DNA of 48,460 nucleotides, taken from positions 1 to 48,460 of the forward strand of contig JAKQLB010000278.1 of NCBI GenBank assembly GCA_029567375.1, written 5' to 3'. Below the pieces are notes generated by a model that was not told the DNA's origin, ran no database searches, and worked only from the letters and a program-made list of their open reading frames with translations. Source of the stretch: Bacteroidota bacterium. Lineage in GTDB: Bacteria > Bacteroidota > Bacteroidia > Bacteroidales > UBA932. The position numbers and the translations under genes were made by a program. The stretch's first letter is position 1. The number at the start of each line of letters is the position of its first letter. Positions 4,159 through 21,651 of this stretch are shown here, one piece after another.

Positions 4159-4190
4159 CAAATGTACTACTTCTTTTGTTGTTGCACAAA
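4159..4190 (-). promoter_or_regulatory. Promoter of the AspT/YidE-like gene
   Basis: On the minus strand TTTG (4190-4187), a 20-base spacer and TACATTTG (4166-4159) fit the Bacteroidota consensus. The leader to ATG 4115 is about 35 bases. The -33 box overlaps the T-run of the terminator of the upstream C25 operon. Confidence 0.75.
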
Positions 4191-4218
4191 AAACCCCGAA
4201 AACCATAAGCTTTCGGGG
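4188..4218 (-). terminator. Rho-independent terminator of the C25 protease operon
   Basis: On the minus strand CCCCGAAA (4218-4211) pairs with TTTCGGGG (4201-4194) around a 9-base loop, then a run of T. It lies 28 bases past the stop of the last C25 gene and ends that operon. Confidence 0.85.
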
Positions 4219-4246
4219 TAGTGTCAATAGCAAAGGTTCCGTGAGT

Positions 4247-6487
4247 TTACTCCCACCTGAGCCTTTTGACGGTTTTAATCATTTCGCGTTTCATTCTGGG
4301 TGAAAGCTCCTGAGTGGCGAGCCACCCGTTGATAACGTTCGCGATTTTTTCCCTTTCAACCGAATAATTGAACCAGCCGAGTGCCTCAATCATCACGAGG
4401 CGGGTATATTCGCTCTGAGAAGCATTGCCGGCGACCTCAAGCAGCTCATCAACCTTCCAATGGAGTGGATTGTTGCGCAGGGTCCTCATTTCGGATTCTC
4501 TTTTTAGATCATCCGCATTGAGGTCCTTGATGGTCTCCATCATCTTGGGTATATTGTTGTAGAAATATCCCATATCCTTCGCAATGTCTTCAGGCAGCTC
4601 ATCGTGCTTGAAGAGGTTGAGAGCCCCTTGAGCAGCATATTGTGTGCGAACCACTTCATGAGAATGGCGTACGACATCTATAAGCTCATCTTTACAATTC
4701 TCCGCTCCCATTTTGCCCGCATAGTGGCAGGATTGTCTGCGGATCATCTCAAAGGGGTCAAAAATCCCCTTCTCCACCACTTTGAAAGTATTCTCATCCA
4801 CAAAAGGCGCAATAGCCGTCAATGCCTGAAGACGCACAATCCGGGATTTATCCTTCTCAAAGATCTCAGCCAGATCGGCAGAATTTAGATCTCCAAGTTC
4901 AGAGAGCTGTTTCACTGCCATTGCGCGGAATATCGGCTCCCTCGCGTTGAGGAAATCCATCCAATATTCGCTGCTGCCGATACCATCATTCTTCATTTTT
5001 CCATCGAGGATATGAGAATGAAATGCGAGTGAGCGGGAAATCTCCGCTGCATCCACTCCCTCGGGAGCAGTGAATTTGAAAGTGGGATCTCCGATCATAT
5101 GTGATTCGAGGTAGCAAACTTCCTTCTGCCAGAAACCGGCTCTGATGCCGAGTGCCAGATAGCCGATAAGCTGATCGGCCCATTTGTCCTGAAGCACGTT
5201 GACAGTATTCCCTTGGGCCACCACATTGCGTCCATCATTGAAAATATGATAGCCGGCGACGTAGCCCTTTTCGTGGAAAGAACCGTTGTAACAAGCATTG
5301 AATATGGTCAGCCTTGCGCCGGTTTTTAGCTTTAGGATATCCTCAAGTACAATATTGATGTTAGCGGATGCCAGTGAGTCGTTGATCCTTTCCGCTTCCA
5401 TCGCCTCATCCGAGAAAAGTGCGGGGTTCAAGTGATAGTGCTCCGTCATCTCCTTGATATACTCCGCTTTTTTGTCGGGATTTCTCTTTACCGCACGGCG
5501 TAGGTCATTTCTGAGGGTGCGTTTGAGGGATTCGATGTTCTCTCCGATGGTATATGCGGGAGCAATGCCGTTGATGTATTGGGTATCGGGAGATCCGTGC
5601 TCGCTGAACATCAGTACATCTGTCTCCGGCCGCTGGATCTCGTTGTACAACCTAAACTTCATATAGTTGTCCTGTCTGAAGTTGTAAAATTTGTTGCCGG
5701 ATGCCTTTTTGAATGCCTGTGGGAAATACTCCCTGAAGAGCATTGGCTGCTGTCTCCACACATTGAGACAATCGGAGTTGTAGCCGTGGCCTGCAAAGAA
5801 AATGAAATGGTCGAGTGGATTGACCTCTTTATGAGCGGCAACCACCTTCTGCAAATATTTTTTCATTACCTCCATCTTATCGCCCGGAAAATCCTCGGGG
5901 ACACGCATACGTGCCGAATAGAAATTGGGGCTGAGCTTCTGTGCTCCATTCTCGGTCAGGTTGTAATAAAACCAGCGGGGGTTATTCTCATCCTGTCCAA
6001 TGAATTCGAAGTCAAGATGAAGGTCGTCGTAATACCTGTCGGAGGTAACGGATGACTCCTCTCTAGGGAAGGTATTTTCATTCATCTTGAATGCGGTGGT
6101 CATAAACTGAGCCTGGCGCACTCTGGCGATGGGAATATCGCCGATGAAGACCATACCTTCGAGGAGAGGTTTTTTCTTGGAAAGAGCAATAATCTGAGCT
6201 TTTACATCTTCGGGCCTGGCCCAGTCGGAAGAGAGGATATAGGTACCTAGCCCTTCATTTTGGAGCACTTTCCTATAAGAGTCGATCTCAGCCTTGCAGG
6301 CATTATATGTCTTGTTGTCCACGAAAATGGCAAAGGATGTGGCCGCCTTAGGGTCACATTTGACAATATTAACTTTTGCTTTAGCTGTTGCAGCTGCCTT
6401 GGCTTTAGGTGCGGCAACCATTGTGCCCGCCATAAGAATAGCACAAATCAAAGCAAATACATTTTTCATAGTAACTCTTCTTCTCAT
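4247..6487 (-). CDS. C25 (gingipain-like) cysteine protease with C-terminal HEAT-like repeats, copy 1
   Basis: This is a 746-residue exported protein. The Sec signal (about residues 1-26) leads almost directly into a clan CD, family C25-like catalytic region with no long propeptide. Candidate catalytic residues are His297 in SEHGSPDTQY and Cys399 in FNACYNGSF, the same order as the gingipain dyad (HGS then ACxNGDF). An extra FAGHGYNSD motif lies near residue 234. The signature GNTVNVLQDKW and the closing GDPTFKF are shared with the two other copies. Residues from about 520 on form helical HEAT-like repeats and end KTVKRLRWE. No type IX secretion C-terminal domain is visible, so the periplasm or another route is expected. 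ATGA overlap with the preceding C25 gene indicates translational coupling and fixes the start. Substrate unknown. Confidence 0.85.
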   Translation of the reverse strand: MRRRVTMKNVFALICAILMAGTMVAAPKAKAAATAKAKVNIVKCDPKAATSFAIFVDNKTYNACKAEIDSYRKVLQNEGLGTYILSSDWARPEDVKAQIIALSKKKPLLEGMVFIGDIPIARVRQAQFMTTAFKMNENTFPREESSVTSDRYYDDLHLDFEFIGQDENNPRWFYYNLTENGAQKLSPNFYSARMRVPEDFPGDKMEVMKKYLQKVVAAHKEVNPLDHFIFFAGHGYNSDCLNVWRQQPMLFREYFPQAFKKASGNKFYNFRQDNYMKFRLYNEIQRPETDVLMFSEHGSPDTQYINGIAPAYTIGENIESLKRTLRNDLRRAVKRNPDKKAEYIKEMTEHYHLNPALFSDEAMEAERINDSLASANINIVLEDILKLKTGARLTIFNACYNGSFHEKGYVAGYHIFNDGRNVVAQGNTVNVLQDKWADQLIGYLALGIRAGFWQKEVCYLESHMIGDPTFKFTAPEGVDAAEISRSLAFHSHILDGKMKNDGIGSSEYWMDFLNAREPIFRAMAVKQLSELGDLNSADLAEIFEKDKSRIVRLQALTAIAPFVDENTFKVVEKGIFDPFEMIRRQSCHYAGKMGAENCKDELIDVVRHSHEVVRTQYAAQGALNLFKHDELPEDIAKDMGYFYNNIPKMMETIKDLNADDLKRESEMRTLRNNPLHWKVDELLEVAGNASQSEYTRLVMIEALGWFNYSVEREKIANVINGWLATQELSPRMKREMIKTVKRLRWE

Positions 6488-8685
6488 CGTGTAAATTCTT
6501 TTAAGCGGTTGATTGTCTTCAAAAGTTCGTCGGAAAGTCGGGGGTCGAGATCTTTCTGATTAGCGAGAATAGCCTGGCAGCCGTTGATGATCTCCACTCT
6601 GTTGTAAGCACGCACATACCATCCCAGAGCTTCAGTAAGGGCGATTTTCAGCTCAAGATCCTCTTCGGGATTGCCGATGACATTTAGGATGTCGTATGCC
6701 ATATGGGGGAAGGGGTTGTTTCTCAGCACCACAATATAGAACTCCCTTTTGGAGGGCTTTATGTCAGTGTCTATGACGCATCTCCAGCACTCGGTAAGTG
6801 TGCGTTCGGCACTATCGATCACATCCTTTACATTTTTCAAGAATTCCTTATTATCGTAGACAAACTCGTTTTCATCCATGATGGCATCCTCAAAGAAATG
6901 CTTCAAAAGTTCCACGTTGAGATGGTGTGCGCTGAAGCTCATATTGAATGCAATCCTTTTTGCAAGGTAATCCTCGAGGTAAGCGTTCACCATGTAGGGT
7001 GCCAGATCGTTGCGTCCAACTCTGCCCATGTAGTACATAGCTTTTCTGCGGATGAACTCGTATGGGTCATCCGATGCCAACTTAAGCAACTCTATATAGT
7101 TGTCGTCATGGTAGTGCGCAAGCAAATGCAAACACTGAAGACGCAGCATATAGTAGGGAGAACTCTTGTAAGTATCGAGCAGGAGATCCGACATTCCTTC
7201 ATATTCCAGCTCAAAGAGCTTGTAAAGGGCTAAGCCCTGTATATCCTCGGGGAGATTGTGCTCCATTACGGCGAGCCAATACTCCGGATCCTTGGAGTGC
7301 ATCTTGATGCGCGGCATCCTTTCCGGCCTTGCAAATCTGAAAGTGGGGTCGCCGATGATATGGGACTCAAGGATATTGATGTTCTTCGTCCATTCACCGA
7401 TCCTCATACCGTATGCGAGCATGCCCATCAGGTCGGTAGAGGATTTATCCTGGAGTACGTTGACTGAGTTGCCGAAACAGGCAATGGTCTTACCCTCGCC
7501 AAAAATATACTCACCTGCGATGAAGTCTCCGTTCCTGAAGTCGCCATTATAGCAGGCGTCAAGTATCACAACGCGGGGATTTGGGCCGATTGCCCTGATA
7601 TCTTCAAGTTCAAAACCGGTTTTTGCATACTCGACAGAGTCCTCCGCAATCACTGCAGGGTCATTCCATCCCTTAAACCAGGTGCTGTCGATGCCATGTT
7701 CCTTGATATACCTCTCCATGGCCTCCTGCACACTATTGCCTCTTTTCTCTACACTCCTAAGCTGTCTGCGAAGCAATCTTTTACCGGAAGTATAGTAATC
7801 CTCTTCGTATTCATTCGGAATAGCTCCGGTCAAATATTGTCTTTCGGTCACACCGTGTTCGTGAAATAGCATCAGGTCCACATCATCGCGCTGCATCTCT
7901 TCTGTCAGAATCTCCTTCATATAGGGGTACATTGCGAAGAGATAAAACTTGGCATTGTTAGCGTGCCCCTGAGTCGCTGCGGGTATCTGTTCCTGCATCA
8001 CATAGCTCTGGTCCTTCCAGGCGATTAGACTATTGGAGAATGAGCCGTCTCCGGTGTATTGTACCACCACATCGAGGGGATTTTCAACACTCCTCTCCTT
8101 AACCACCTTTTTGAGGTAGTTGCGGATCTGAACAAAGCCTGCTTCACCCTTTGCAGTTGAACGGATACGTCCACTATAAATGTCACAGGAAATGCGTTGG
8201 GGAGAATCACCGGTCTGCCAGTAATAGTAGAGATGCTGATGGGTCGAATCCCGATGAAGGAATCTGAATTTCAGGTCAAAATCATCATAGAAACGATCTG
8301 AAGGAACTGATGATTCATAGTAACTATAAGCATCCTGATCCATTTTGAATGCAGAGGTGAAGTGTTGCGCTCCGCGGATCATGGGAACCGGAATGTCACC
8401 TACGAATACTGCCCCCTCAAGTCCCTGTTCATCGTAATACTTTTTAAGGAAAAACTTCACATGCTCGGGAGATTCCCACTCGGCTGAGAGAATGTAGGTT
8501 GCGAGGCCATCTTTCTCTATGAGGTCGCGATAGGCGTGTATCTCCTCCTTGCAGGCATCATAGGTAGCCTGGTCAACAAATATGGCGAACGAGTTGCGGA
8601 CGCTTTGGGTTGGGGAGATAATATTTTGCTGCGCCCCCAGTGGGAGGCACAGCAAAATAAAAAAGAGTAACGATATTTTTTTCAT
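6484..8685 (-). CDS. C25 (gingipain-like) cysteine protease with HEAT-like repeats, copy 2
   Basis: This encodes 733 residues with a clear signal peptide (MKKISLLFFILLCLPLGAQ). It is homologous along its length to the copies on either side: opening SFAIFVDQATYDACKEEI, middle SSVPSDRFYDDFD, candidate catalytic His277 (HEHGVTERQY) and Cys378 (LDACYNGDF), then GNSVNVLQDKS and GDPTFRF. The first GHGYNSD motif of the other two copies is here TGDGSFSNS, so that His is gone while the later His is kept. The C-terminal part carries HEAT-like helical repeats and ends LLKTINRLKEFTR. It lies 21 bases after the DUF6850 gene and overlaps copy 1 by 4 bp. Likely an active protease with altered specificity; inactivity cannot be excluded. 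Confidence 0.85.
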   Translation of the reverse strand: MKKISLLFFILLCLPLGAQQNIISPTQSVRNSFAIFVDQATYDACKEEIHAYRDLIEKDGLATYILSAEWESPEHVKFFLKKYYDEQGLEGAVFVGDIPVPMIRGAQHFTSAFKMDQDAYSYYESSVPSDRFYDDFDLKFRFLHRDSTHQHLYYYWQTGDSPQRISCDIYSGRIRSTAKGEAGFVQIRNYLKKVVKERSVENPLDVVVQYTGDGSFSNSLIAWKDQSYVMQEQIPAATQGHANNAKFYLFAMYPYMKEILTEEMQRDDVDLMLFHEHGVTERQYLTGAIPNEYEEDYYTSGKRLLRRQLRSVEKRGNSVQEAMERYIKEHGIDSTWFKGWNDPAVIAEDSVEYAKTGFELEDIRAIGPNPRVVILDACYNGDFRNGDFIAGEYIFGEGKTIACFGNSVNVLQDKSSTDLMGMLAYGMRIGEWTKNINILESHIIGDPTFRFARPERMPRIKMHSKDPEYWLAVMEHNLPEDIQGLALYKLFELEYEGMSDLLLDTYKSSPYYMLRLQCLHLLAHYHDDNYIELLKLASDDPYEFIRRKAMYYMGRVGRNDLAPYMVNAYLEDYLAKRIAFNMSFSAHHLNVELLKHFFEDAIMDENEFVYDNKEFLKNVKDVIDSAERTLTECWRCVIDTDIKPSKREFYIVVLRNNPFPHMAYDILNVIGNPEEDLELKIALTEALGWYVRAYNRVEIINGCQAILANQKDLDPRLSDELLKTINRLKEFTR

Positions 8686-8706
8686 TAATTGGTACAGGAT
8701 ACTTTA

Positions 8707-10335
8707 TCAGAAAGTAAATCCGATTGAAAAATTAGCAAATGTTCTTGCGCTGGGGGTTAATTGGTTACCGGGGTTGAGGTTCCACCAGAAATTCTTGCCC
8801 TCAGTGTCGGTACCATAGCTGTAGTTGTGAAGTTCCTCATCAGCACGGAGATACTTACAGCTTGCAGCTACATAAATTGTACTTTTCTCGCCAAGAGGGA
8901 AGATGGCTTTAAGATTGATGCCGAACTGGTAATAATTGGCGCTGAGAATGGCAAGATCCTTCTCGTAAAGGTCTCTGACTACCTCTGAATCGGGGAAAGG
9001 ACCACCATAATTATGTTCACCAGCGATGTTGAAGTTATAACCGGCGCTCAGACCTGCGACAATGGAGGCGTTACCGACCATGAAATTCTTTTTACCGTAA
9101 ATTTCTCCATAAACGTTTTCAGCCTTGAAAGAAGATTCGGGAAGAATATAGGTATCAAACCTGTCAGTGTACTGGCCTTGAATACCCGCCATCCAGTCAT
9201 AACCCTCCCTGCTATCCCTGAAGATGTCATACTTTAGAGAAATGCCTGTGAAGTCATACTTGCTGCGGATAAATTTGGCTATTGAAATCCACTGTTGTAC
9301 CTCGTATGTGGCGTCGATTACCTGAATGTATTCGATGCCGTCAGTGTGTTTCTTATAACCGTCGAGCGTAACTTTATGGGTGAAAGAGTCACCTTCGACC
9401 AAGGCCTGGAGATTGCCCCCCATTACCTGCTGAATGGTTGAGCCCATTCTGAAGGGTTTGGCAGGAGTGTGGAACACGTCAATCACCTGATAAACGTAGT
9501 TGCCCTCTGCAAGCACCTTTATATTAGAGCCCTGATAGCCGTACTGAAGAGCACCGCCGAGTCTGTTGGTCTTGTAGTAGTATGTGCCAAGTCCACCGAA
9601 TGAACCTACAACGGCATCAACATAAGTGCCGACACCTCTTAGGTTAAATGCGGGCTGGTCTTGCTGGCTGTTGCTGTTGAGAGGAGAATATCTGTCAAAA
9701 GCATTCTTATACATGAATGTCAGACCTGCACTGTGATTACCGAATGCGAAGACAGCGGATGGCTTTACTTCGATGCCATACTCGTAGGAATCGCTTCGGG
9801 GGTCAATCTGTTTTGCACCGCTCTTCGTAAAGTAGTTGACGGTTACACCGAAAGCCACTAAATCCCAAAGCAGAGGAGTGGCAGCCTTCATAGTCATATC
9901 GTAGACCTGTTTCTTGAAATAACTCAAGCGTGAGTCTGCAAGAATATAAGGCATATCGGGGTCAAGGGTAAGGCGGAGGGTGTTGAATTTGGTGTTTTCC
10001 TGGGTTATGTTTTGGTAGGAAAATTCACCCCATACACGTGCTCTGCCGAGAGGACTTGAACCTGATGTATGGATGTCGAGCGTCTTGAGGTCACCCTCCT
10101 GCTGAAGTCTGTAGGCACCGACTTTCATATCGTAGCCCACCGAGAGTGTACCGAAGTCACTCAGAGGAGTCAGTATCATACCTGCCGCATTGTTCGAGTT
10201 GAACCATGTGGCTTTAACTTGATTGATTTCCAGCACTGTCGGATAGATGGTAGATTTACTCCCCTGTGCCTGAGCAACCAATATTGTGCTCAAAGCCAGA
10301 ACTGATGCGATAATATGTTTTTTCATCTTTTTCAT
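8707..10335 (-). CDS. DUF6850-family outer-membrane beta-barrel protein
   Basis: This is a 542-residue protein with a signal peptide (MKKMKKHIIASVLALSTILVAQAQ). The mature chain is dominated by alternating, aromatic-rich beta strands with Gly/Tyr turns and ends in Phe (NFSIGFTF), the usual last residue of an outer-membrane barrel. I recognise it as DUF6850-like from its start (IYPTVLEINQVKATWFNS) and its place beside a DUF4876 gene. Its function is not established in what I know. The gap to the DUF4876 gene is 17 bases and to C25 copy 2 is 21 bases, so it is co-transcribed with both. It may be a pore or docking partner for the protease or lipoprotein products. Confidence 0.8.
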   Translation of the reverse strand: MKKMKKHIIASVLALSTILVAQAQGSKSTIYPTVLEINQVKATWFNSNNAAGMILTPLSDFGTLSVGYDMKVGAYRLQQEGDLKTLDIHTSGSSPLGRARVWGEFSYQNITQENTKFNTLRLTLDPDMPYILADSRLSYFKKQVYDMTMKAATPLLWDLVAFGVTVNYFTKSGAKQIDPRSDSYEYGIEVKPSAVFAFGNHSAGLTFMYKNAFDRYSPLNSNSQQDQPAFNLRGVGTYVDAVVGSFGGLGTYYYKTNRLGGALQYGYQGSNIKVLAEGNYVYQVIDVFHTPAKPFRMGSTIQQVMGGNLQALVEGDSFTHKVTLDGYKKHTDGIEYIQVIDATYEVQQWISIAKFIRSKYDFTGISLKYDIFRDSREGYDWMAGIQGQYTDRFDTYILPESSFKAENVYGEIYGKKNFMVGNASIVAGLSAGYNFNIAGEHNYGGPFPDSEVVRDLYEKDLAILSANYYQFGINLKAIFPLGEKSTIYVAASCKYLRADEELHNYSYGTDTEGKNFWWNLNPGNQLTPSARTFANFSIGFTF

Positions 10336-10352
10336 TGTTAGAGGTCAGTAAA

Positions 10353-11561
10353 TTATTTCTTGTACCAGGTATTCCAGGATGGAACGCCGGGATTGTTGCG
10401 GCGTACCATCGCTACGCTGTTGATCTGGAAGTCATCTGTAGAGTTGTTGGTGTCCATATAAATGTGACGGCCATCCTTTGTAGTCTCACGAATCTTTCTG
10501 CTGACGCTGTTGCAGTTATAGGTAGCACCTGTGTAAGTTGCGCCAGCATCAAGAGAGGTAGGCATACGTTTCTGATTGATCTTGGTAGCGTTGTTTACAA
10601 TTTCAACGGCATCTACGACACAATCGATGGGGATCGGATATGCCTGATTAGTCCTACCCTGTGGCTTTACCCAGCCATTGGGGTCGATTTCGTGGTCGGG
10701 GAAGAAGATGGCATAAGCACCTCCGAACACCGTAACAAGCCACTGTGTGCCGAACACACCCTTGTCAAATGCAAGAATCATATTGTGTGCATTGGGGTTG
10801 TCGGGGTTGACACTCTGGTTGACGATGAAAGTCTCGAATTCAGCACCGCTGAGGTCAACCGGACTGGTCGGCTTGATTGCGGTGTGGTTTTGTGCAATCT
10901 GTGCGATGATTATAGACTCGCCGGGTTTTACGGGAAAGTCATTACCATCACCGGGCACCTGCCAGATAGAGGCCAAATAGATGTAGTTTTCGGGCTTGCC
11001 GTCGGGAACTTCCCAGTTGTAGGTAGTTGTTGAAGCCAGGGCCGGCAAGATATTGCCGATGCCCAAACCATCCACATACTGTACGGCATCGCTATTGTTA
11101 TAGATCTCGTAGAACTGATCCTTAAAATAGTATCCTGTCGAACCGTTGAAGTAAATCTCTTTGAATATAAGCGCACCTGCTCTGGAAGAGACTACATCTA
11201 TATTGAAGTTCTGTCCGCTGGTAAGTATATTGATGTTGGTCAAACTACCGCTAAAATAGTAAGTAAATCCGCCTCCGGCTGATTCACCGGTCGCAGTTAC
11301 CGTATAAACTCCGGGAATCAGACCATCAGCACTTACGTTGCCTGAAGCATCCGTAGTTCTGGAAATCTCGAAATTCTCACCGTAGTTGATAAAACGCACG
11401 GTGTAGCTTGCGGGAAGCGGTGTGTCAGCGTCCGTGCCGCTTGTGGAAATCTTGACATTTGCACTGATGGGAACCACCTCCACTATATCTGCTACTTGCT
11501 TGAACTGCTCACAGGAGAGGGCTGTCAAGAGTACTATTGCTAATAAAAAGTATTTTTTCAT
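10353..11561 (-). CDS. DUF4876 surface or periplasmic lipoprotein
   Basis: This encodes 402 residues. The N-terminus MKKYFLLAIVLLTALSCEQF gives a strong lipobox (ALSC), so it is lipid-anchored. Residues 30-120 look like a Cna-B or carboxypeptidase-regulatory beta-sandwich (SRTTDASGNVSADGLIPGVYTV). The rest holds the DUF4876 signature FKEIYFNGSTGYYFKDQFYEIYNNSD and has a lamin-tail-like beta character. The gene lies 15 bases after the TonB receptor and 17 before the DUF6850 barrel. By analogy with SusD and other receptor-linked lipoproteins it could capture a ligand for the TonB receptor; that is inference. Residues 2-4 after Cys are EQF, which does not clearly settle outer- versus inner-leaflet placement. 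Confidence 0.85.
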   Translation of the reverse strand: MKKYFLLAIVLLTALSCEQFKQVADIVEVVPISANVKISTSGTDADTPLPASYTVRFINYGENFEISRTTDASGNVSADGLIPGVYTVTATGESAGGGFTYYFSGSLTNINILTSGQNFNIDVVSSRAGALIFKEIYFNGSTGYYFKDQFYEIYNNSDAVQYVDGLGIGNILPALASTTTYNWEVPDGKPENYIYLASIWQVPGDGNDFPVKPGESIIIAQIAQNHTAIKPTSPVDLSGAEFETFIVNQSVNPDNPNAHNMILAFDKGVFGTQWLVTVFGGAYAIFFPDHEIDPNGWVKPQGRTNQAYPIPIDCVVDAVEIVNNATKINQKRMPTSLDAGATYTGATYNCNSVSRKIRETTKDGRHIYMDTNNSTDDFQINSVAMVRRNNPGVPSWNTWYKK

Positions 11562-11576
11562 AATCCTATCCTCCGT

Positions 11577-14348
11577 TTAGAAAATGTTAACTTTAAGATC
11601 GAAACCGAAGAACAATTTGTTGTCGCTGAGAAGCTCGGTGAATGAACCCGGAGACTTCTTGGACTCGTAGAGAGGACGGCTGTTGAACATATTGTTCACA
11701 AAGAAAGATGCGGTAAGTCTGTTGCCTATTTCCTTTGAAATGTTGAGGTTGAAGGTTATCGTGGGAAAATATTGCTCCACAATAAACCTGTTCTCACTCC
11801 TGGCGTCGAACATATATGCAAACTCGGGATCATTCTTCTTGGAAGGGTCAAAGTCATAAACTTTGCCGTCCTTGTAGGAGAGATATTTGATGAACATTGT
11901 GTCATCGCCATACTCTGTCCAGAATTTCTCAAACCAGTTGACTTGAGTGGCGAGTGTAATCACAAATCCTATCTCAGGGATATTGTGTGTGAGACGAAGT
12001 GTGGTAATCAGGTTGTCGGTACGTTCGGTGGTAAGACCTTTCTCGTAAATTGCAACGTTGCTTTCTATTTCGTTTCCTCTACTGTTCTGGTCAAAGGTGT
12101 AGCCGTTACTTCTCGAGGTGTATTGATTCCAGGCACCATTGAGGAATACTGCTGTCCTGATGGCGTCGAAACGGCCGAGATCCAGTTCGAACTCGATACC
12201 TCTGTTGTGTCGGTAATGGTTGTTCATTGGTCTTGCAAAGGTCGAGAAGATGTTGTAGGTGCCTTCATATTCGGGGGCGTAGACACCTTCAGAATTCTTA
12301 ACTGCCTTATATTTTATAAATTCGATGAGCCGGTAGCTGCTAAGATCTTTGCCGAGGGTATAACCATTATTGGTGAGCTCATCATAACCTGTAATTGAGA
12401 GACGATACTGATCGAAGAGTTTCAGGTCGATACCCACTTCCGCTTTACGCATCTTGGCGATCTCGAGGTCGGGGTTGCTTGTGTCAAACACTCTCACGGT
12501 GGCTACGGTTTGTCTGTATGTGCCCTCCTGGAAGTCGTAGTTGTTGTAGTTGAAGAAAGCCCTCTCAGGATAGAGCATTAAGGCTGTCGGGGCCTTGGCG
12601 GTCGTTCCCCATCCTCCACGTATCGTCAGGATATTGGGAATGATTTCCATAGATGCGTTGATACGGGGAGAAATGGCTGTCTTACCGTTAATAAGGTCAA
12701 AACGGGCGCCGGCTTTGACGCTGAGCTCATTTCTGCCGAAAGTATGTTTGTATGTGTCTTCAACGAAGAGACCGAGTTGATGAACGAAAGGAACATCATA
12801 GTAGGGTCTCTTACGATATGAAGAGTAATCGCTGGCATTGTTTCTAAAAGGAGGGGTCTCGTCGTCATAGACCTTTCCTTTACCGAGGTTGCCGTCTGTC
12901 TTGTAGTCGGCACCCACGAGGATGTGGTTGTTGATGTTGCCCCATCTCTTGTTGAAATTGGCCTTAATCTGAGCGTAGGCGTTGAGCTCCTTACCCAGGA
13001 TTTCATAAGTCTGGACGTATTCGTATGGGAGTACTTTGATCCAGTTTTCAGCTTCACTGGCGGGGATGTTGGTAATCTTCTTTCCATTTATATCATATAC
13101 ATCCTGACCGGCGACATTGGAAAGGATAGCGCCATCATACTCACAAACTGTGTGGAGTGACTCTGCATTGGAGAGGAGCTGGTTGTTGTAGTTGTACTTA
13201 TCGGCGTAGCTTATTGCTGCAGCGTAAGTAATGTTGTTTAACCAGCCTTTATTGATGTTGACGGTACCATTGGTATTCAATCTTATACTCTGTGAGTCAC
13301 CTTTGGTGACAAGCATGGTGCGCAGGTCATCGGGGTTTAGCTCGCGTGTGTCCTTGCTGATACCCAGATCGAGAGTGGTATTGGTATTCCAGTTCTCGCC
13401 GAATTTCTTCGACCATAAAGCCTTTGCGTTGAATCTTTGGTAATAGGCGTACGCTTCGTAAAGCCTGGTTGTGTTATATGCATAGTCACCGGAAAGGTTG
13501 AGGTGACCGGCATTTTCACCAAGTTTGAAGCCCACTGATGCGGCTGCCTGGTAGGTGTTGGGATTGGCTTTGAGACGAATGCTCAGAGGCTCTTTACCCG
13601 CTTTGGAACGGATAACCACGGCACCGGCATTGAGGTCTCCATACTCAACAGAAGGGATACCCCTGATGACTTCAATGGACTCGATGTTGTCAGTGGAGAC
13701 CATGCGTGAGTCTATACCCGACATCGTGCCGCCTGCTCCACCGGTGATGGATGGGGCAAGAGCCTGCATGTTAGCGTTGGAAGAGAGGGGAGAACCGTCC
13801 ACGATGATAGCTGTACCAATACTCGTAGCATTACGGATGGTGATGTAGTTAGCGGTCGAAAGGTAGGGATTGGTAATCGCTACGCCCGGAAGCAACTGCA
13901 TCACATCGTTCAAAGAGCTGGTTTGGAGGTGGTCCATCGCCTGTCTTGAGATATTGGATGAGGTGGCTGCACCCGCTCTACTTTGGGTGGCCACAACCTG
14001 CACCTCGTCAAGACGGAAGTTCTCTACTTGCATTTCAAAGTTGAAGACATTCTCTTTGCCGGAAACAATTACAATTTCCTGCTCAATTGTCTTCATTCCA
14101 ACAAATTGAACCCGGATAGTGGATTTTCCCGCATCCACTCTCTTGAATTCAAAGTTGCCGTCTTTGTCTGTAGTGGTATATGTCTCCGAAGGATGCAATA
14201 TCACCACGGCAAATTCTACGGGCACCTTTGTGCCCTGTTCCAGCACCGTACCGGTTACAGATGTGCCGGAAGTACCCCTCGTTTGAGCGAAGGCCCCCAC
14301 ACACACGAATAACAGGCAGAGCATGAGAACTTTCTGAATTCTTTGCAT
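11577..14348 (-). CDS. TonB-dependent receptor with carboxypeptidase-like N-domain
   Basis: This is a 923-residue outer-membrane importer. Order: signal peptide (1-21), CarboxypepD_reg-like beta-sandwich (about 28-108), TonB box region around RLDEVQVVAT, plug (about 125-245, with MQLLPGVAITNP and the closing VEYGDLNAGAVVIRSKAG), and a long beta-barrel ending in Phe. It is shorter than SusC proteins, and no SusD gene accompanies it; a DUF4876 lipoprotein takes the next place instead. It lies between C25 copy 3 (42-base gap) and DUF4876 (15-base gap). The ligand is unknown. Receptors of this size import peptides, metal complexes, vitamins or glycans; the protease company favours a peptide or protein-derived ligand. 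Confidence 0.92.
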   Translation of the reverse strand: MQRIQKVLMLCLLFVCVGAFAQTRGTSGTSVTGTVLEQGTKVPVEFAVVILHPSETYTTTDKDGNFEFKRVDAGKSTIRVQFVGMKTIEQEIVIVSGKENVFNFEMQVENFRLDEVQVVATQSRAGAATSSNISRQAMDHLQTSSLNDVMQLLPGVAITNPYLSTANYITIRNATSIGTAIIVDGSPLSSNANMQALAPSITGGAGGTMSGIDSRMVSTDNIESIEVIRGIPSVEYGDLNAGAVVIRSKAGKEPLSIRLKANPNTYQAAASVGFKLGENAGHLNLSGDYAYNTTRLYEAYAYYQRFNAKALWSKKFGENWNTNTTLDLGISKDTRELNPDDLRTMLVTKGDSQSIRLNTNGTVNINKGWLNNITYAAAISYADKYNYNNQLLSNAESLHTVCEYDGAILSNVAGQDVYDINGKKITNIPASEAENWIKVLPYEYVQTYEILGKELNAYAQIKANFNKRWGNINNHILVGADYKTDGNLGKGKVYDDETPPFRNNASDYSSYRKRPYYDVPFVHQLGLFVEDTYKHTFGRNELSVKAGARFDLINGKTAISPRINASMEIIPNILTIRGGWGTTAKAPTALMLYPERAFFNYNNYDFQEGTYRQTVATVRVFDTSNPDLEIAKMRKAEVGIDLKLFDQYRLSITGYDELTNNGYTLGKDLSSYRLIEFIKYKAVKNSEGVYAPEYEGTYNIFSTFARPMNNHYRHNRGIEFELDLGRFDAIRTAVFLNGAWNQYTSRSNGYTFDQNSRGNEIESNVAIYEKGLTTERTDNLITTLRLTHNIPEIGFVITLATQVNWFEKFWTEYGDDTMFIKYLSYKDGKVYDFDPSKKNDPEFAYMFDARSENRFIVEQYFPTITFNLNISKEIGNRLTASFFVNNMFNSRPLYESKKSPGSFTELLSDNKLFFGFDLKVNIF

Positions 14349-14390
14349 AAGTTGTGTTGAATTAGGGTTAATAATAATTTGTATGTTTGG

Positions 14391-16463
14391 TTAGTTTTTT
14401 CTTTTGAGACGATTGATGCTCTTGAGCAGTTCATGTGCTACACGATCCTCCTTTTCGTTTGCCAGCAGCTCTTCGCATCTGCTGATAATTTCATCTTTTC
14501 TATAGGAATAGACATACCAGCCGAAGACCTCGGCAATTGCCACTCTGAACTCCTGGTCGGTCTCGTTTTGCAAAAGTTTGAACATATCATCCAGGGCATA
14601 GGCGCAACAACCGTTGCGCTCGCGCCTGACAGTAAACTTCTTGTCCTTGAGCGGTCGGTCGGGAGAGTTCAGCAGCGCATACTCCTCAAGTTCTTTTTCA
14701 GTCGGATAGAAATGTCGCCTCATCGGTTTGATGTAGAACATCACTCTTGAGTTGACAGCCGGATCATCCTTGAGGGCATCATAAATATCCTTGAGGGCAG
14801 GGTCGCCGGACTCATCGAGCGTCTGCGCACTGAGCCTCTGCAATAGTTCATAAGAGTCTTCAATTCCAAGCCTGATAGCCTGTGAAAGGTATGAATCCGC
14901 TCTTCTTTTGAGTGACATGAAGGCTTCCATGCGCACGACGGGACTTTCACTGTTCCTCTCTATATTGAGTAACTCCTGTGAGGTTATGGCGTTGGTCTCA
15001 GAAAGGGTCTTAATTGCAAGCGCCCTGATATCGCAATTGGAATGGTTTAGAATTTTTTTCCAATATCTGCTTTCGCCTCGGCGGGTGACCATGGCTTTGT
15101 CGAGATCCAGTTTCGGATATGCATTGGCGAAACGGAAACTGGCATCACCAAAGAGATGCGACTCGAGAGTTAGCTGCCCTTTTGCCCAGTTGCCGAAACA
15201 GACACCTGCATTAAGCAGACCGATCAATTCGTTGGTCCAGGTATCCTGTAGTGTGTTTACAGTATTGGCTTTCACCACCATAGTCGCTCCGGGATTGAAT
15301 ATCCAATATCCTGCGATATAGTCCTCATTGTTGAATGCTCCATTGAAACAGGCGTCAATTATTACGGCACGTGCGTTGGATGTGTAGCCGTACATATCGG
15401 GGAGATTGATGTCCATATTGGCATAGAAGGTGCTGTCTTTGGCCTCAAGCTCCTGTGCGCCGGCAAACCACTCTCTTGGAACTCCATATCTCTCCATATA
15501 CTCATTGATGGTGACGGTGGTGTCCTTTGAGCGTCTGATCCTCTGGCGGAGGCTCAATTTGATGTTTTCCACCCAGGAATCAATCGTTACAGCTTTTGGT
15601 GTCGCTCCCAGATACTGGGTATCCTCAGATCCGTGATGATGAAGGATCGCCAGGTCATACCTCGGCAGAGCGAGGGTATTCATCAACTTTTCGCGTACGA
15701 ATGGTTCGAAGTCGTGATTGATATAGTCCAGGTCAGCACCTCTTTCGGAGCCCAGGAATGGGAATTGCTCCTTGAGCGTCCATATTTCGTCAATGCGCGC
15801 GTTATATGAATCGGAGTTATATCCGTGTCCGGCAAATACCAGAATGTTGGAGATCTTTTTGGGTTGTTTGCGCTTCTGCTCTATTGCTTTTTTTAGATAA
15901 GCGGAAATTGCAGAGTATTTGTCGGTTTCCGGAATCTTCGGGGGCTTGATGCGTGAAGTCCAGATGTCGCACCCGATGGTTTGTGCGGATTCGGCGGTAA
16001 GGGAATAATAGTGCAACAATGGCTTGTCCGCATCCTGTTTCAAGTATTCGAAGCGGAGGTCAAAGTCGTCATAAAACCTATCGGAAGGGACGGAAGAGTC
16101 TTTCCAGTCGGCTCTTTGGTCCATCTTGAAAGCGGTGGTCATATGCTGTGCATCTCGGATCATCGCGATTGGAATATCGCCAACGAGTATTGCGCCTTCA
16201 AGTTTGTGTGTGGTGTAATAGTGCTTCAGCACTGCTCTCAGAGAATCGGGATGCTGCCATTTGTCAATAATAAGAACCCCCTCTTTGCCTATTAATGACA
16301 TGGAGGCTGTAAAGGCATCTATATCATTTCCGATGGCTTCGTAGGTTTTTTGATCGGTAACAACAGCCACTTTGGTGGTGCGTGCCTTGGTCATTCCGTT
16401 TGTCGTGGCAGCTAATGCCATCAACATCAGGGCTGACAGGGACAGAATAAGTGTTTTTCTCAT
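14391..16463 (-). CDS. C25 (gingipain-like) cysteine protease with HEAT-like repeats, copy 3 (first gene of operon)
   Basis: This encodes 690 residues with a signal peptide (MRKTLILSLSALMLMALAATTNG) followed directly by the catalytic region. Shared features: SSVPSDRFYDDFDLRFEY, VFAGHGYNSDS near residue 212, candidate catalytic His277 in HHHGSEDTQYLG, Cys372 in IDACFNGAF, NTVNTLQDTW, and GDASFRF. The helical HEAT-like tail ends LLKSINRLKRKN, close to the other two copies. It diverges most from them (for example KVAVVTDQKTYEAI at the start) and is the promoter-proximal gene, so the duplication that gave copies 1 and 2 is probably younger. No type IX sorting domain is visible. Function and substrate are inferred only from family. 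Confidence 0.85.
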   Translation of the reverse strand: MRKTLILSLSALMLMALAATTNGMTKARTTKVAVVTDQKTYEAIGNDIDAFTASMSLIGKEGVLIIDKWQHPDSLRAVLKHYYTTHKLEGAILVGDIPIAMIRDAQHMTTAFKMDQRADWKDSSVPSDRFYDDFDLRFEYLKQDADKPLLHYYSLTAESAQTIGCDIWTSRIKPPKIPETDKYSAISAYLKKAIEQKRKQPKKISNILVFAGHGYNSDSYNARIDEIWTLKEQFPFLGSERGADLDYINHDFEPFVREKLMNTLALPRYDLAILHHHGSEDTQYLGATPKAVTIDSWVENIKLSLRQRIRRSKDTTVTINEYMERYGVPREWFAGAQELEAKDSTFYANMDINLPDMYGYTSNARAVIIDACFNGAFNNEDYIAGYWIFNPGATMVVKANTVNTLQDTWTNELIGLLNAGVCFGNWAKGQLTLESHLFGDASFRFANAYPKLDLDKAMVTRRGESRYWKKILNHSNCDIRALAIKTLSETNAITSQELLNIERNSESPVVRMEAFMSLKRRADSYLSQAIRLGIEDSYELLQRLSAQTLDESGDPALKDIYDALKDDPAVNSRVMFYIKPMRRHFYPTEKELEEYALLNSPDRPLKDKKFTVRRERNGCCAYALDDMFKLLQNETDQEFRVAIAEVFGWYVYSYRKDEIISRCEELLANEKEDRVAHELLKSINRLKRKN

Positions 16464-16500
16464 AAAAAACCAATAAACGTCTTGTTTAATCTATAAACTA

Positions 16501-16530
16501 CAAAGATACTTATTATTTTGATTGCACAAA
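16501..16530 (-). promoter_or_regulatory. Promoter of the C25/TonB/DUF4876/DUF6850 operon
   Basis: On the minus strand TTTG (16530-16527), an 18-base spacer and TATCTTTG (16508-16501) fit the Bacteroidota consensus, with a leader of about 30 bases before ATG 16463. No comparable promoter was seen in the short gaps between the six genes. Confidence 0.75.
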
Positions 16531-16613
16531 GAAATGTAGGCATCAATGAGGGCTGAAAACCCTGTTTGAGAGCCATGGGCGAAATGGTTTAATTATAACA
16601 TGTCAAAAAGAGG

Positions 16614-16644
16614 TTGGTGCTTTTGATTATTATAATTAACTTTG
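16614..16644 (+). promoter_or_regulatory. Probable promoter of the S9 peptidase genes
   Basis: TAACTTTG (16637-16644) is a good -7 box. TTGG (16614-16617), 19 bases upstream, is a weak -33 candidate. It is divergent from the C25 operon promoter, so the 230-bp gap could allow shared control. Confidence 0.55.
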
Positions 16645-16693
16645 TAAGATGCGCAAATAACTGAAAATACTTATTATTTAACAACAAAACACG

Positions 16694-19474
16694 ATGAAAC
16701 GTTCTTTTCTCTACCTCATTATGCTGATAATACTTCCAGCATTTCCATTTGTCCTAAATGCACAGACATCAAAGCCTGCTCTCGATCATTCGGTCTATGA
16801 TGGGTGGAAAAATGCCGGCAATGTTTCCGTCTATAATGACGGGGAATGGGGCCAGTTCTATATTTCACCTCAGGAGGGCGACGGCACCATTGAGTTTTAC
16901 AACTTAAGGACAGGCAGACAGATTTCCATTGAACGAGGCCAGCAGGTCAGATTTTCCAAAGATGCTACCAGGGCGATTTTCAAAATTATTCCTAAGTTTC
17001 AGGAGACTCGCCGGGCTAAAATAGAAAAAAAGAAGAGCAAGGATATGCCTAAGGATACTCTCGGTATCCTCAATCTTGCCTCAGGCGAAGTGACCAAATT
17101 TCCGCTTCTTAAGAATTTCAAATCAAGCGTACTGACGGGTGACTATATTGCATTCCAGAGAGACACCACATCCAATCTCTACATTCTCAACATCAAGACG
17201 ATGGCGCTGGACTCCGTTAAAAGTGTCTCCGAATACGATTTTTCCAGAGAAAATGATATCTTGACTTACACCACGAAACCCGATCCCAAAAAGGATTCTA
17301 TCACAGTTCCCGGCATCTATTTGCTCAACCCCGCCACAGGTGTGACTACAACGCTGATCCAGGGCTCCAAAGAGGCGGTTTTCGGCAATACCTATTTTAC
17401 GGAAGATGGATCAAAGATGGCATTTTATGCAAATACCGATACTACAAAAGAGACCAAGAAATTTACCAACATTTATCTCTACGACGGCTCCGAGACCAGA
17501 ATGCTCGTTCCCAGAGATGCAGAATGGATTCCCGAAGGCTAGATGGTCAGCGACAATGGCAGAATCAGCTTCAGCAAGGCGGGAGATTATATTACATATG
17601 GCACCTGCCCGATTCCCCGTGAAAAAGATACGACTCTCGTGGAATTTGAGCAGCCCAAACTTGATATATGGAGCTGGAATGATGAATATATCCAGCCTAT
17701 CCAGCTAAAAAATCTCAATCGTGAGAAAAAACGCACCTATCTGGCTAAAATAAATATTGATGGTACAAATCCCGTACAATTGGCTGACCCGACTCTCGAG
17801 AGCGTCGGCATCGGAGATGAGAATAAAGAGCAATATGTCATTACCTATACCGACAAGCCCTACCGTATGTCACAACAGTGGGATATGAATCCTAAAAACG
17901 ATGTCTACAAAGTTTCACTGATCGACGGCAGTAAAGAACTCTTGGCAAAAGGCGCTCCCTTCAATATGATGATGTCTTCTCCGGACGGTAAGTATTACAC
18001 TTTTTACGATGCTGAAGCCAGGATCTGGTATCTCTATACCCTTGCAACGGGTGAAATCAAAGACCTAACCTCTGAATTAGGAGTGATTTTCTACAACGAG
18101 GATCACGACACACCCTCACTTCCTAGGCCTTATAGCAGTGCCATCTGGTCGGAGAATTCAGACTATTTCCTCATTCGTGACAGATACGACTACTGGCAAT
18201 TTGATCCCACGGGAACGAAAGCACCGTTCCTCCTGACAGAGGGTAAGGGTCGTGCTACCAATACTACATATACAGTCGCCAACCCTTACAATGATCCCAA
18301 ATCATTTATGGGTCGTTCGCTGAAGATTAATGCCGGTAAGCCGATTTATTTCCGCACCTTTGACAGGACCACAAAAGAGACGGGTTTTGCCATAAAGGAT
18401 GTCACCAAAAGGAGGGCCACCCTCCGGCAATTGGTAAAGGGTCCTTATACTTATGATGCCATGGGTATCTGCACAACAGGCAAAAAACCCATCTATATTT
18501 ACTCAAGGGGACGTTTTGAGGACGGCAACAATATATGGTTAACTTCCGATGATTTCAAGACTCAGGTACAGGTGACCGATGTGAATCCTCAGCAGAGGGA
18601 TTACAACTGGGGTACCGTAGAGCTCGTTTCCTGGAATACCGCGGATGGTATCAGGGCCGAAGGACTTCTCTTTAAACCCGAAAATTTCGATCCCGCAAGG
18701 AAATATCCTTTGATGATCTATTTCTATGAAAAATATTCGGATGATTTGTATGCCTCTCGTTCACCTGCACCGAGTCGTTCGACCGTCAACATTCCTTACT
18801 TTGTCAGCAATGAGTATATCGTGTTTGTTCCCGATATTTATTATACAGACGGACATCCCGGTCAGAGCGCCATGAAGTCGATCATGCCCGCCTGTGACAT
18901 GTTATGCGAATATCCCTGGATTGATGGCGACAATATGGCCATTCAGGGTCAAAGCTGGGGCGGTTATCAGGTAGCTTATATGATTACTCAGACCAACCGT
19001 TTCAAGGCGGCAGGCTCCGGTGCTCCGGTTTCCAATATGACAAGCGCATATGGTGGTATCCGTTGGGAGAGCGGCATGGCGCGCACATTTCAGTACGAGC
19101 AGCAGCAGAGCCGCATCGGCAAGGACCTCTGGGAGGGATTTGACCTCTATATCGAGAATTCTCCCCTCTTCTTCGTGCCCAATGTGACCACTCCGGTACT
19201 CATTATGCACAACGACGAGGATGGAGCGGTTCCATGGTGGCAGGGTATTGAATTTTTCAATGCCCTCAGACGCTGCGGTAAAAAGGCCTGGTTGCTCCAG
19301 TACAACGGAGAAGCCCACAATCTCCGCGACCGTCGCAACACACGTGACCTGAGCATTCGCCTCGAACAATTCTTTGACCACTATCTCAAGGGCAAACCGG
19401 CTCCTATTTGGATGAGCAAGGGTGTTCCTGCAACTCTTAAGGGCATCGACCTCGGATATGGATACGAACAATAA
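16694..19474 (+). pseudogene. S9 prolyl oligopeptidase-family peptidase, interrupted by in-frame TAG
   Basis: Two blocks in the same frame (282 and 643 codons) are separated only by TAG at 17540-17542. Read through, they give a 926-residue secreted S9 peptidase: signal peptide (1-23, FPFVLNAQ), beta-propeller-like region starting DHSVYDGWKNAGNVSV, and an alpha/beta-hydrolase domain with Ser (GQSWGGYQ), Asp (HNDEDGAVPWW) and His (GEAHNLRD). Residues around the stop read EWIPEG-stop-MVSDNGRISFSKAG; relatives as I recall them have Trp here (GW.VS), so TGG to TAG is the simplest lesion. The second block has an ATG right after the stop but no signal peptide. The rest is well preserved, so the mutation is recent, a strain variant or a sequence error. 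The DPP5-like gene follows after 26 bases. Confidence 0.85.
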
Positions 19475-19500: not shown

Positions 19501-21651
19501 ATGAGACGTTTATTGAAAGTTATGACGATTGTAACGATAATGGCTGCACTTACAGCAGCGACATCTTGTAATACGGCTTCCAAAAAGAGCGCTTCTGCTT
19601 CGGAACCTCCAATCACGAAGCCTACGGTGACTGTGCAGGATGGACAATACACTCCCGAAATAATGCACTCACTGGCCAAAGTGTCCGACCCGCAGATTTC
19701 CCAGGACGGTACCAAAATCTTGTACGGAGTCGGCTACACCTCAATTGAGCAGAACAAAACCAACCGTGAGCTCTTTGTGATGGACATTGACGGGAGCAAT
19801 AAAGTACAACTCACAACTACCCCTCAGAGCGAGAACAATGCACGCTGGATAGAGGGCGGAAAGCGCATCCTCTTTTTAAGAGGTGGTCAGATGTGGGTAA
19901 TGAATGGTGATGGTACCGGCGAGAAACAGGTGAGTGACGTTCCCGGAGGCATGATGGAATTCAAGCTCTCTCCTGACGGCACGAAGGTGCTTTATTCTGC
20001 CAACTTCAAGGTGGCAAAAAGTCCCGCAGAGATCCATCCGGATCTGCCACAATCCACAGCCCGTACTATTGAGGGTATGATGTATAGACATTGGGACCAC
20101 TTTGTGGAGAGTATTCCCCACACATACCTTGCAGACTTCGACGGCAATAAATTGGGAGAAGGAGTCGATCTTCTTGCAGGGGAACCCTATGAACTCCCGG
20201 CTGAGCCCTTCGGCGGCATCGAACAGCTCGATTTTTCACCCAAGGGCGATCGGATTGTCTATTCCTGCCGTAAGAAAACCGGTAGGGAGTATGCTTTCTC
20301 CACCAACAGCGACATCTATCTGTTGAACCTCTCGGATAACCTCTGCGCTAATATCTCCGAGGGAATGATGGGTTATGACACTAATCCGGTATTCAGCCCC
20401 GACGGAGGTAAAATTGCCTGGATGAGCATGGAGAGAGATGGTTATGAAGCAGATAAGATCCGTCTTTTTGTATTTGATATTAATTCCGGCAAGCGCCGTG
20501 AACTTTCCACAGCCTTCAAATATAATATAGAGAATCCCGTATGGATGCCCGATTCCAAGGGACTTTACTTCACATCGCTGGTGGAGGGTCTTCAGGAGAT
20601 ATGGAAGACTGACCTCGAAGGCAATATGGCCAGAGTGACCCCTGAACGCGAGTGGTTCAATTTCGGCGCACCTTTGCTACTGACTTCAACTACCGAAGAG
20701 GGTTCGGTCAAGGTGGAACGTCTGATTGCCACAAATCTCTGTATGTTGCGTCCTGCGGAAATTGTTTCCATAAATGCAGAGGATGGCAGTTGGGAGCAGC
20801 TTACTTTTGAGAACAAAGAGATTTTCGACCAACTTGACGATGTAACTATAGAAGAGAGGTGGATACGCACTTCGGATAATAAGAAGATGCTCACCTGGGT
20901 GCTTTACCCGCCCAAATTTGACAAAAGCAAAGTATATCCTTCGATTTTGCTCTGTCTCGGCGGCCCTCAGGGCACTTTGAGTCAGGGTTGGTCTTATCGC
21001 TGGAACTATCGCCTGATGGCCTCTCGGGGTTATATAGTGGTGCTTCCCAACAGGCGCGGTACAACTGCATTCGGACAAGAGTGGTGTGAGCAGATATCAG
21101 GTGACTATATAGGTCAGAATATGAGGGATTATTTCTCTGCGGCAGATGCTCTCAAGGCTGAGCCCTATGTGGGCAAAATGGCGGCTGTGGGTGCCTCTTA
21201 CGGCGGTTACTCAGTCTTTTATCTTGCAGGAATACACCAGAAGAGATTCGATGCATTCATTGCACATGCCGGAATCTTCAATGTGGAGCATATGTATATG
21301 ACCACCGAGGAGATGTGGTTCCCCGACTGGGATAACGGCGGCATCGCTCAGCCCGATACATATATGGCCGGATCCCCCTGGAGCAACAATCCCGTTGCAC
21401 GAAGACACTATGCCAACTCTCCTCACAAACTTGTGGAAAAATGGGATACTCCTATCCTGATCACGCACGGAGAACTCGACTACCGTGTGCCGGTAGATCA
21501 GGGAATGGCTGCGTTCAATGCTGCACAGATGATGGGAGTTCCCTCCAGAATGATTCTTTTCCCCGATGAAAATCACTGGATCCTCAAACCCCAGAATTCC
21601 ATCCACTGGAACCGCGAATTCTTCGGATGGCTGGAGACGTACCTCAAGTAG
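19501..21651 (+). CDS. DPP5-like S9 dipeptidyl peptidase, predicted lipoprotein
   Basis: This encodes 716 residues. The N-terminus has a lipobox (AATSC), so the enzyme is probably lipid-anchored in the periplasm or outer membrane. Residues about 55-420 form a beta-propeller with repeated TolB-like strands (ISQDGTKILYGVGY, LSPDGTKVLYSANF, FSPDGGKIAWMSM). The C-terminal alpha/beta-hydrolase domain has Ser in GASYGGYSVFY, Asp in HGELDYRVPV and His in DENHWI. The last segment closely resembles Porphyromonas DPP5, which releases dipeptides with hydrophobic penultimate residues from oligopeptides; assignment to DPP5 rather than another S9C enzyme is by recalled similarity. It is 26 bases downstream of the broken S9 gene and may supply the remaining activity. 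Confidence 0.88.
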   Translation: MRRLLKVMTIVTIMAALTAATSCNTASKKSASASEPPITKPTVTVQDGQYTPEIMHSLAKVSDPQISQDGTKILYGVGYTSIEQNKTNRELFVMDIDGSNKVQLTTTPQSENNARWIEGGKRILFLRGGQMWVMNGDGTGEKQVSDVPGGMMEFKLSPDGTKVLYSANFKVAKSPAEIHPDLPQSTARTIEGMMYRHWDHFVESIPHTYLADFDGNKLGEGVDLLAGEPYELPAEPFGGIEQLDFSPKGDRIVYSCRKKTGREYAFSTNSDIYLLNLSDNLCANISEGMMGYDTNPVFSPDGGKIAWMSMERDGYEADKIRLFVFDINSGKRRELSTAFKYNIENPVWMPDSKGLYFTSLVEGLQEIWKTDLEGNMARVTPEREWFNFGAPLLLTSTTEEGSVKVERLIATNLCMLRPAEIVSINAEDGSWEQLTFENKEIFDQLDDVTIEERWIRTSDNKKMLTWVLYPPKFDKSKVYPSILLCLGGPQGTLSQGWSYRWNYRLMASRGYIVVLPNRRGTTAFGQEWCEQISGDYIGQNMRDYFSAADALKAEPYVGKMAAVGASYGGYSVFYLAGIHQKRFDAFIAHAGIFNVEHMYMTTEEMWFPDWDNGGIAQPDTYMAGSPWSNNPVARRHYANSPHKLVEKWDTPILITHGELDYRVPVDQGMAAFNAAQMMGVPSRMILFPDENHWILKPQNSIHWNREFFGWLETYLK

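Follow-up and report, generated by a model that had tools for sequence, protein, structure and literature searches.

What might be the role of an operon in which three gingipain-like C25 proteases surround a TonB-dependent receptor, a DUF4876 lipoprotein and a DUF6850 β-barrel? Such an operon of six minus-strand genes lies in the window analyzed here, the whole 48,460-nucleotide stretch of contig JAKQLB010000278.1 (assembly GCA_029567375.1) from a Bacteroidota bacterium. Work on TonB-dependent receptors has mostly dealt with the uptake of small molecules or, for Bacteroidota, of glycans. Here a conserved receptor core has one slot that is occupied by peptidases of unrelated families, which points to a polypeptide as cargo, and PMC10434189 places loci of the same annotation in the iron stimulon of one gut and one oral species. 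We propose, with a probability of about 0.45, that the locus encodes an outer-membrane import system of Bacteroidota that is associated with proteases and linked to iron. The loci compared below probably represent one conserved, modular import system with a probable link to iron, similar in working to the Fus system and, on present evidence, not a member of it. The operon and its framing signals are as follows:

16501..16508, minus strand: −7 promoter box, Bacteroides-type, TATCTTTG (motif from general knowledge)
14391..16463, minus strand: C25a, exported C25-fold peptidase with a C-terminal HEAT array, 690 residues, His277 and Cys372 predicted as catalytic
11577..14348, minus strand: TonB-dependent receptor, 923 residues, CarboxypepD-like domain at the N-terminus, no SusC family match
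10353..11561, minus strand: DUF4876 lipoprotein, 402 residues, lipobox Cys17 (from Pfam, the Cys17 alignment column and the solved relative 4q1z)
8707..10335, minus strand: DUF6850 outer-membrane β-barrel, 542 residues (from Pfam, structure model and fold matches)
6484..8685, minus strand: C25b, second C25-HEAT peptidase, 733 residues
4247..6487, minus strand: C25c, third C25-HEAT peptidase, 746 residues, with a 4-base overlap with C25b
4193..4219, minus strand: intrinsic terminator, 12-pair stem followed by a T run

The gaps between the genes, computed from the open reading frame coordinates, are 42, 15, 17, 21 and −4 bases, exactly as given in the first-pass annotation of this DNA, and the Pfam matches agree with its naming of receptor, lipoprotein and barrel. 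These genes recur together. A scan for C25-HEAT proteins confirmed at least 451 relatives, and in the best 80 loci, which were used for the linkage counts, the receptor, DUF4876 and DUF6850 genes are all present in 68; 10 of the other 12 loci are cut by a contig end. The order C25-TonB-DUF4876-DUF6850-C25-C25 was found in 25 of the 68 loci, C25-TonB-DUF4876-DUF6850 in 20, TonB-DUF4876-DUF6850-C25 in nine (and the same order with three C25 genes in six) and C25-C25-TonB-DUF4876-DUF6850 in four, together with four other orders seen once each. Between operon genes in these loci, 264 of 278 gaps are no longer than 100 bases. The gene order and the short spacing are repeated throughout the 80 loci (by their titles mostly from Bacteroidales), so that a chance neighborhood was ruled out, and the possibility raised at first pass, that the C25 genes are rarely next to DUF4876 or DUF6850, proved the opposite of what is found. 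The one locus with a Flavobacteriaceae label (L074) and the one labeled Pseudoflavitalea (L076) have the same four kinds of gene.

A separate draw of 198 genomes from the window's order (Bacteroidales, judging by how its relatives are titled), with at most five C25-HEAT candidates scored per genome, gave DUF6850 over the cut-off in 32. Some C25-HEAT match is present in 19 genomes, full-length in eight (the window's genome included) and weak and partial in the other 11, and in all eight the full-length genes lie near DUF6850 (13 of 14 genes, the remaining one being at a contig edge). As far as sampled, C25-HEAT thus implies the TonB-DUF4876-DUF6850 core, and the core does not imply C25-HEAT.

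The occupants of the slot beside the core were counted from 6 genes before to 7 genes after the barrel, on either strand. Of 88 stretches fetched around DUF6850 genes, 39 came from the order search, nine from the class search and 40 from the 80 places of the family search, chosen by score and distance from contig ends, so that the sample is weighted toward the window's own family. The barrel was refound in 83 loci; L104, L116, L117, L120 and L121 (barrel not found by the profile) and L122 (anchored on C25) were left out, and G290 (31 bits) was not in the sample. Outside the census, L104, L117 and L121 all contain TonB, DUF4876 and the ATP-binding cassette (ABC) module. With module identities taken from Pfam on representatives, C25-HEAT is present in 21 of the 83 core loci, DUF4857/ABC in 21, S46 in 11, the di-haem peroxidase family CCP_MauG in four, M16 plus S46 in three, M16 in three and S46 plus DUF4857 in one. 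Directly after the core, on the same strand, the gene is C25-HEAT in 19 of 82 loci, ABC in 11, S46 in nine, CCP in four, M16 in four (one with a 2.5-kb gap) and the ABC-module lipoprotein in three; it is some other gene in 31 (18 on the same strand, 13 on the opposite one) and missing in one.

By comparison, the same profiles found no C25-HEAT, S46 or M16 gene in 19 further TonB loci, which came from five genomes (20 hand-picked, spread down the list, with L186 left out). The resulting peptidase enrichment (39/83 core loci versus 0/19; Fisher p 4e-5) serves merely as a guide, because the loci are related. On the DUF6850 tree, where 20 of 80 inner branches are unresolved, the C25 form needs two changes, and the ABC and S46/M16 forms need ten each. 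The window's genome also has a second TonB-DUF4876-DUF6850 core (L113, G000:C145), behind which the contig breaks off after the first 129 residues of an S46 peptidase. Recruitment of three unrelated peptidase families, or of a redox or inner-membrane module, by one receptor core suggests a polypeptide cargo whose useful part would be freed after import. The first-pass view of a self-contained outer-membrane system thus survives in part: the system is conserved and lipoprotein and barrel travel with the receptor, but there is no fixed six-gene unit, as the core also occurs with other peptidases or an ABC/PepSY module.

C25-HEAT and DUF4857 never occur together in the 83 loci of the census; however, L056 and L058 carry both C25-HEAT and ABC/DUF4857 in one locus, and the claim that the two modules strictly exclude each other was dropped. 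The same pair stands at a contig end in L059, with the core out of reach, whereas L067 has the ABC gene only. The inner-membrane module itself recurs beside the core as an ABC ATPase, a small membrane protein and DUF4857, often with a lipoprotein and a PepSY-TM protein (L086, L087, L096, L110, L114, L117, L166 and others).

The three HEAT proteins of the window are homologous over their full length, the other two sharing 32 and 34% identity with the first. None of them matches the Pfam C25 profile at E ≤ 0.1; in alignment A2, with 50 members, it picks up 7 at E ≤ 0.5 (lowest E 7.4e-7), and from a set of 63 trimmed domains it picks up 9 at E ≤ 1 (lowest E 4.1e-7). When the window's own genome was searched with this profile there was no match, but the positive control was also silent, making the search uninformative. 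No gingipain was returned at E ≤ 10 by a sequence search of the C25 domain against the PDB, and none is among the 50 Foldseek matches listed, which are mostly HEAT and other helical-repeat proteins. VIA-align 2, applied to Foldseek candidates, found a gingipain-type caspase-like fold in the catalytic domain, and His277 and Cys372 are present, in HG and A-C-x-N-G contexts, in all 152 aligned proteins, including all three of the window (four fused double proteins of 1,419–1,452 residues were left out). The naming of these proteins as C25 proteases at first pass is borne out by fold, His/Cys pair and homology throughout, although the window proteins fall below Pfam C25 detection.

Their catalytic fold begins at residue 28, leaving no space for a propeptide. 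Fifty members match five NCBIfam families at E ≤ 0.01, and no type IX sorting domain is among these or among the 25 Pfam families listed of 49 matched; sorting-domain proteins do exist in the window's genome (4 of 5 matches over the cut-off). On the NCBIfam result the C25 proteins were rejected as type IX secretion cargo, and their initial description as lacking both a sorting domain and a long propeptide and ending in a HEAT-like tail holds. A home-made lipobox rule scores 14 of 183 C25-HEAT proteins as lipoproteins, none of which has two acidic residues at +2 to +6. Gingipains such as RgpB and Kgp carry an immunoglobulin-like domain, a propeptide and a sorting domain; here, in contrast, a HEAT array follows the catalytic domain and the sequences lie beyond the reach of the Pfam profile. 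By sequence and fold, C25a, C25b and C25c are paralogous cysteine peptidases of the gingipain type, each keeping the His/Cys pair intact and ending in HEAT repeats; no type IX signal was found in them, and their activity is predicted. The double-length proteins of 1,419–1,452 residues head the operon in L020, L021, L022 and L028.

The core proteins are assigned by Pfam: the barrel to DUF6850 (PF21012, E 3.8e-84), the lipoprotein to DUF4876 (PF16215, E 6.2e-44) and the receptor by its TonB plug and N-terminal CarboxypepD-like domain. The structure model of the DUF6850 protein (predicted local distance difference test score, pLDDT, 89.5) is almost entirely β, and its fold matches are outer-membrane barrels; PorV is not among the matches listed, which does not exclude a PorV match. 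In the DUF4876 family, of which 4q1z is a solved relative, the Cys17 column is invariant in 49 aligned proteins. Two acidic residues at +2 to +6, a lipoprotein export signal according to PMC5080379, are present in 64 of the 111 DUF4876 proteins scored as lipoproteins by the home-made rule, and the DUF4876 lipoprotein is probably surface-exposed. The receptor with its CarboxypepD-like extension and co-encoded lipoprotein recalls SusC/SusD, and DUF4876 is a plausible, putative stand-in for SusD in ligand capture; a SusCD system as such was rejected, since neither protein matches a SusC or SusD family (Pfam E ≤ 0.1, NCBIfam E ≤ 0.01). Weak similarity to the lamin tail domain was seen in 23 of 49 DUF4876 members (alignment A4).

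The link to iron comes from published expression data on loci of the same annotation. PMC10434189 reports induction in low iron of 3.5–7.4-fold for BT1933-39 of Bacteroides thetaiotaomicron (HEAT, DUF4876, TonB), 36.7- to 128-fold for BT3625-33 (DUF4857, PepSY, DUF4876, TonB) and 20.8–214.5-fold for the TonB/DUF4876 locus PG1019-22 of Porphyromonas gingivalis; a figure legend there puts the TonB/DUF4876 locus beside a Prevotella intermedia locus. By annotation, all three share the TonB receptor and DUF4876 with the window operon, BT1933-39 also having a HEAT-repeat protein and BT3625-33 the DUF4857/PepSY genes of the alternative module. In PMC10470040, a DUF4876 gene of P. gingivalis shifts with the same sign as HmuY between hemin conditions. 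One of our loci, L069 from Bacteroides sp. ET71, has the order TonB-DUF4876-DUF6850-C25-C25-C25. The words C25 and gingipain do not occur in the main text of PMC10434189, which leaves the protease nature unmentioned. Within open-licence PubMed Central literature, DUF4876 was found in three papers, DUF4857 and BT1937-39 were found only in that iron-stimulon study, the sole hit for BT1934-36 was a cattle transcriptome, no mention of DUF6850 was found, and no paper was found joining a Bacteroidetes TonB-dependent system, C25, HEAT repeats, iron and a protease. The initial statement that the combination has no described function thus holds only in part, the TonB/DUF4876 locus being already reported as iron-responsive in P. 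gingivalis and B. thetaiotaomicron (PMC10434189).

In the import system that we propose, DUF4876 at the surface and the receptor would capture an iron- or haem-carrying protein or peptide, which the receptor would move over the outer membrane in a TonB-dependent manner. The C25-HEAT enzymes would be soluble in the periplasm or anchored on the periplasmic face of the membrane; their HEAT arrays would hold the incoming chain and their C25 domains cut it, freeing metal or haem along with peptides that S9-type peptidases may finish. DUF6850 would act as an accessory pore or receptor partner, and in other lineages M16, S46, the ABC/DUF4857/PepSY module or a di-haem peroxidase would take the protease slot.

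The closest parallel is Fus. Grinter et al. (2019, PMC6793856) describe proteobacterial FusA relatives whose partners are M16 enzymes of the FusC type, proteases of other kinds or cytochrome c peroxidases; the shared traits are a TonB-dependent receptor linked to an exported protease, the iron link and the peroxidase or other proteases as alternatives. In contrast, the receptor here is not recognizably FusA-like, C25-HEAT replaces M16 in the operon, and the DUF4876 lipoprotein and DUF6850 barrel are added. The Fus clusters of that paper are from Proteobacteria, and the word Bacteroidetes is absent from its main text. The window operon has no M16 protease of the FusC/PqqL type (at 6 of 83 loci elsewhere an M16 gene accompanies this core), and the system is therefore described as working like Fus, not as belonging to it. 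More tentatively than for the import system as such, we suggest that Bacteroidota, independently of proteobacterial Fus, evolved a modular pathway importing whole iron- or haem-bearing proteins through the receptor-DUF4876-DUF6850 core for digestion in the envelope by HEAT-armed gingipain-fold proteases, the slot having received new occupants several times, from three or more peptidase families without relation to one another. If true, functions could be given to DUF4876 and DUF6850 and to a large gingipain-related family, protein import for iron would extend beyond Proteobacteria, and the cargo question would be directly testable in genetically tractable Bacteroides.

Several observations weigh against this proposal. 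No Fur-type site was identified in an alignment of seven promoter sequences, and 19 of the 83 core loci have none of the counted modules (four of these, L089, L093, L155 and L170, show an ABC gene without DUF4857). In the PDB, phmmer matches the receptor to eight sequences at E ≤ 0.001; every one is a CirA or ferric enterobactin receptor chain and aligns over the plug, so that at this threshold the receptor is not recognizably FusA/YddB-like. YddB, the Escherichia coli Fus relative, is PqqU, a receptor for the small cofactor pyrroloquinoline quinone. A section of PMC6793856 bears a heading to the effect that PqqL and YddB give no support to growth under iron limitation; a protease neighbor does not, therefore, prove protein import. 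BT1934-39 was equated with this operon only by annotation and gene order (including that of L069), not by B. thetaiotaomicron sequence. Two loci are real exceptions to the linkage, L031 with C25 and TonB but neither DUF4876 nor DUF6850, and L039 with five C25-HEAT genes and no core gene in reach. As to surface exposure, the window's own DUF4876 has just one acidic residue at +2 to +6, two basic residues occupy these positions in 17 of 111 DUF4876 proteins, and 7 of 121 barrels, too, come out as lipoproteins under the lipobox rule. Finally, peptide nutrition often involves enzymes of the S46 and S9 families, and iron may therefore not be what matters here.

This last argument leads to general protein and peptide nutrition, in which the receptor would import oligopeptides, C25, S9, S46 and M16 enzymes would trim them to small peptides and the iron response would be secondary. 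It would account for the S46 and S9 enzymes adjoining the core, for the Dpp5 and M24 Xaa-Pro aminopeptidase genes that come after the S9 gene on the operon's flank in the window, and for the use of one slot by several unrelated peptidases; we nevertheless consider it unlikely, as a locus of the same annotation and other DUF4876 loci are induced by iron depletion (PMC10434189) and the alternative modules, PepSY/ABC or a di-haem peroxidase, are as far as known not peptide-nutrition genes. Proteolysis at the surface, with the C25 enzymes acting outside like gingipains to strip a carrier protein of haem or of a peptide chelate, which the receptor would then take up, would suit the shared fold and the probable exposure of DUF4876. 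We regard it as improbable, however, given the absence of NCBIfam sorting domains from 50 members although the window's genome does have sorting-domain proteins, the 14 lipoprotein-scored C25 proteins without acidic export signals, and a fold start that leaves no room for the propeptide of gingipains. There is a still slimmer chance that the C25-HEAT proteins serve in maturation, processing the receptor, the DUF4876 lipoprotein or a substrate at the DUF6850 barrel in the manner of PorU, the partner of PorV in type IX secretion; the C25 fold and the position of a C25 gene directly after the barrel gene in 19 of 82 loci speak for such a role.

The promoter box TATCTTTG and the 12-pair-stem terminator frame the operon as first described, with one box (16508-16501) and one stem (4219-4193), yet consensus scans of the window barely exceed shuffled sequence, both for promoter-like sites (36 versus 26.8 ± 5.2) and for terminator-like sites (17 versus 15.5 ± 4.3). 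The promoter call consequently rests on the short Bacteroides-type motif and on a like box in relatives, and the terminator call on the long stem. In the seven-sequence promoter alignment, a TA..TTTG box lies upstream of the first operon gene in L001, L003, L004 and L007 as well and was not found in L002 or L006; beyond this box, present in five of the seven, nothing else is shared.

Divergent from the operon are two further peptidase genes:

16694..19474, plus strand: S9 peptidase gene, broken by an in-frame stop at 17540-17542
19501..21651, plus strand: Dpp5-type S9 dipeptidyl-peptidase

An S9 gene adjoins the operon in 11 of 80 loci, comprising the five closest relatives with flank (L002, L003, L004, L006, L007) and six further ones, and a Dpp5-type gene stands beside it in L002, L004, L006 and L007 too. 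The S9 frame is uninterrupted at 927 residues in the close relatives L002, L003 and L004, and the in-frame stop in the window could be a mutation or an assembly error. The M24 Xaa-Pro aminopeptidase that follows (21856-22857) has 333 residues versus 463 in L002, and a 127-residue frame (22869-23252) comes directly after it; this gene may therefore be broken in the window too.

A papain-like protein follows straight after the C25-HEAT genes in L068, L077, L078, L092 and L147. Four of these loci were scanned with Pfam, giving an HmuY-like tail under the cut-off in L092, L068 and L078 and none in L077, too weak for haem to be assigned as ligand by way of HmuY. In L039, the five C25-HEAT genes lie in a row at 5466-16860; in L014, which is a similar locus, the core stands after the third C25-HEAT gene and before the fourth.
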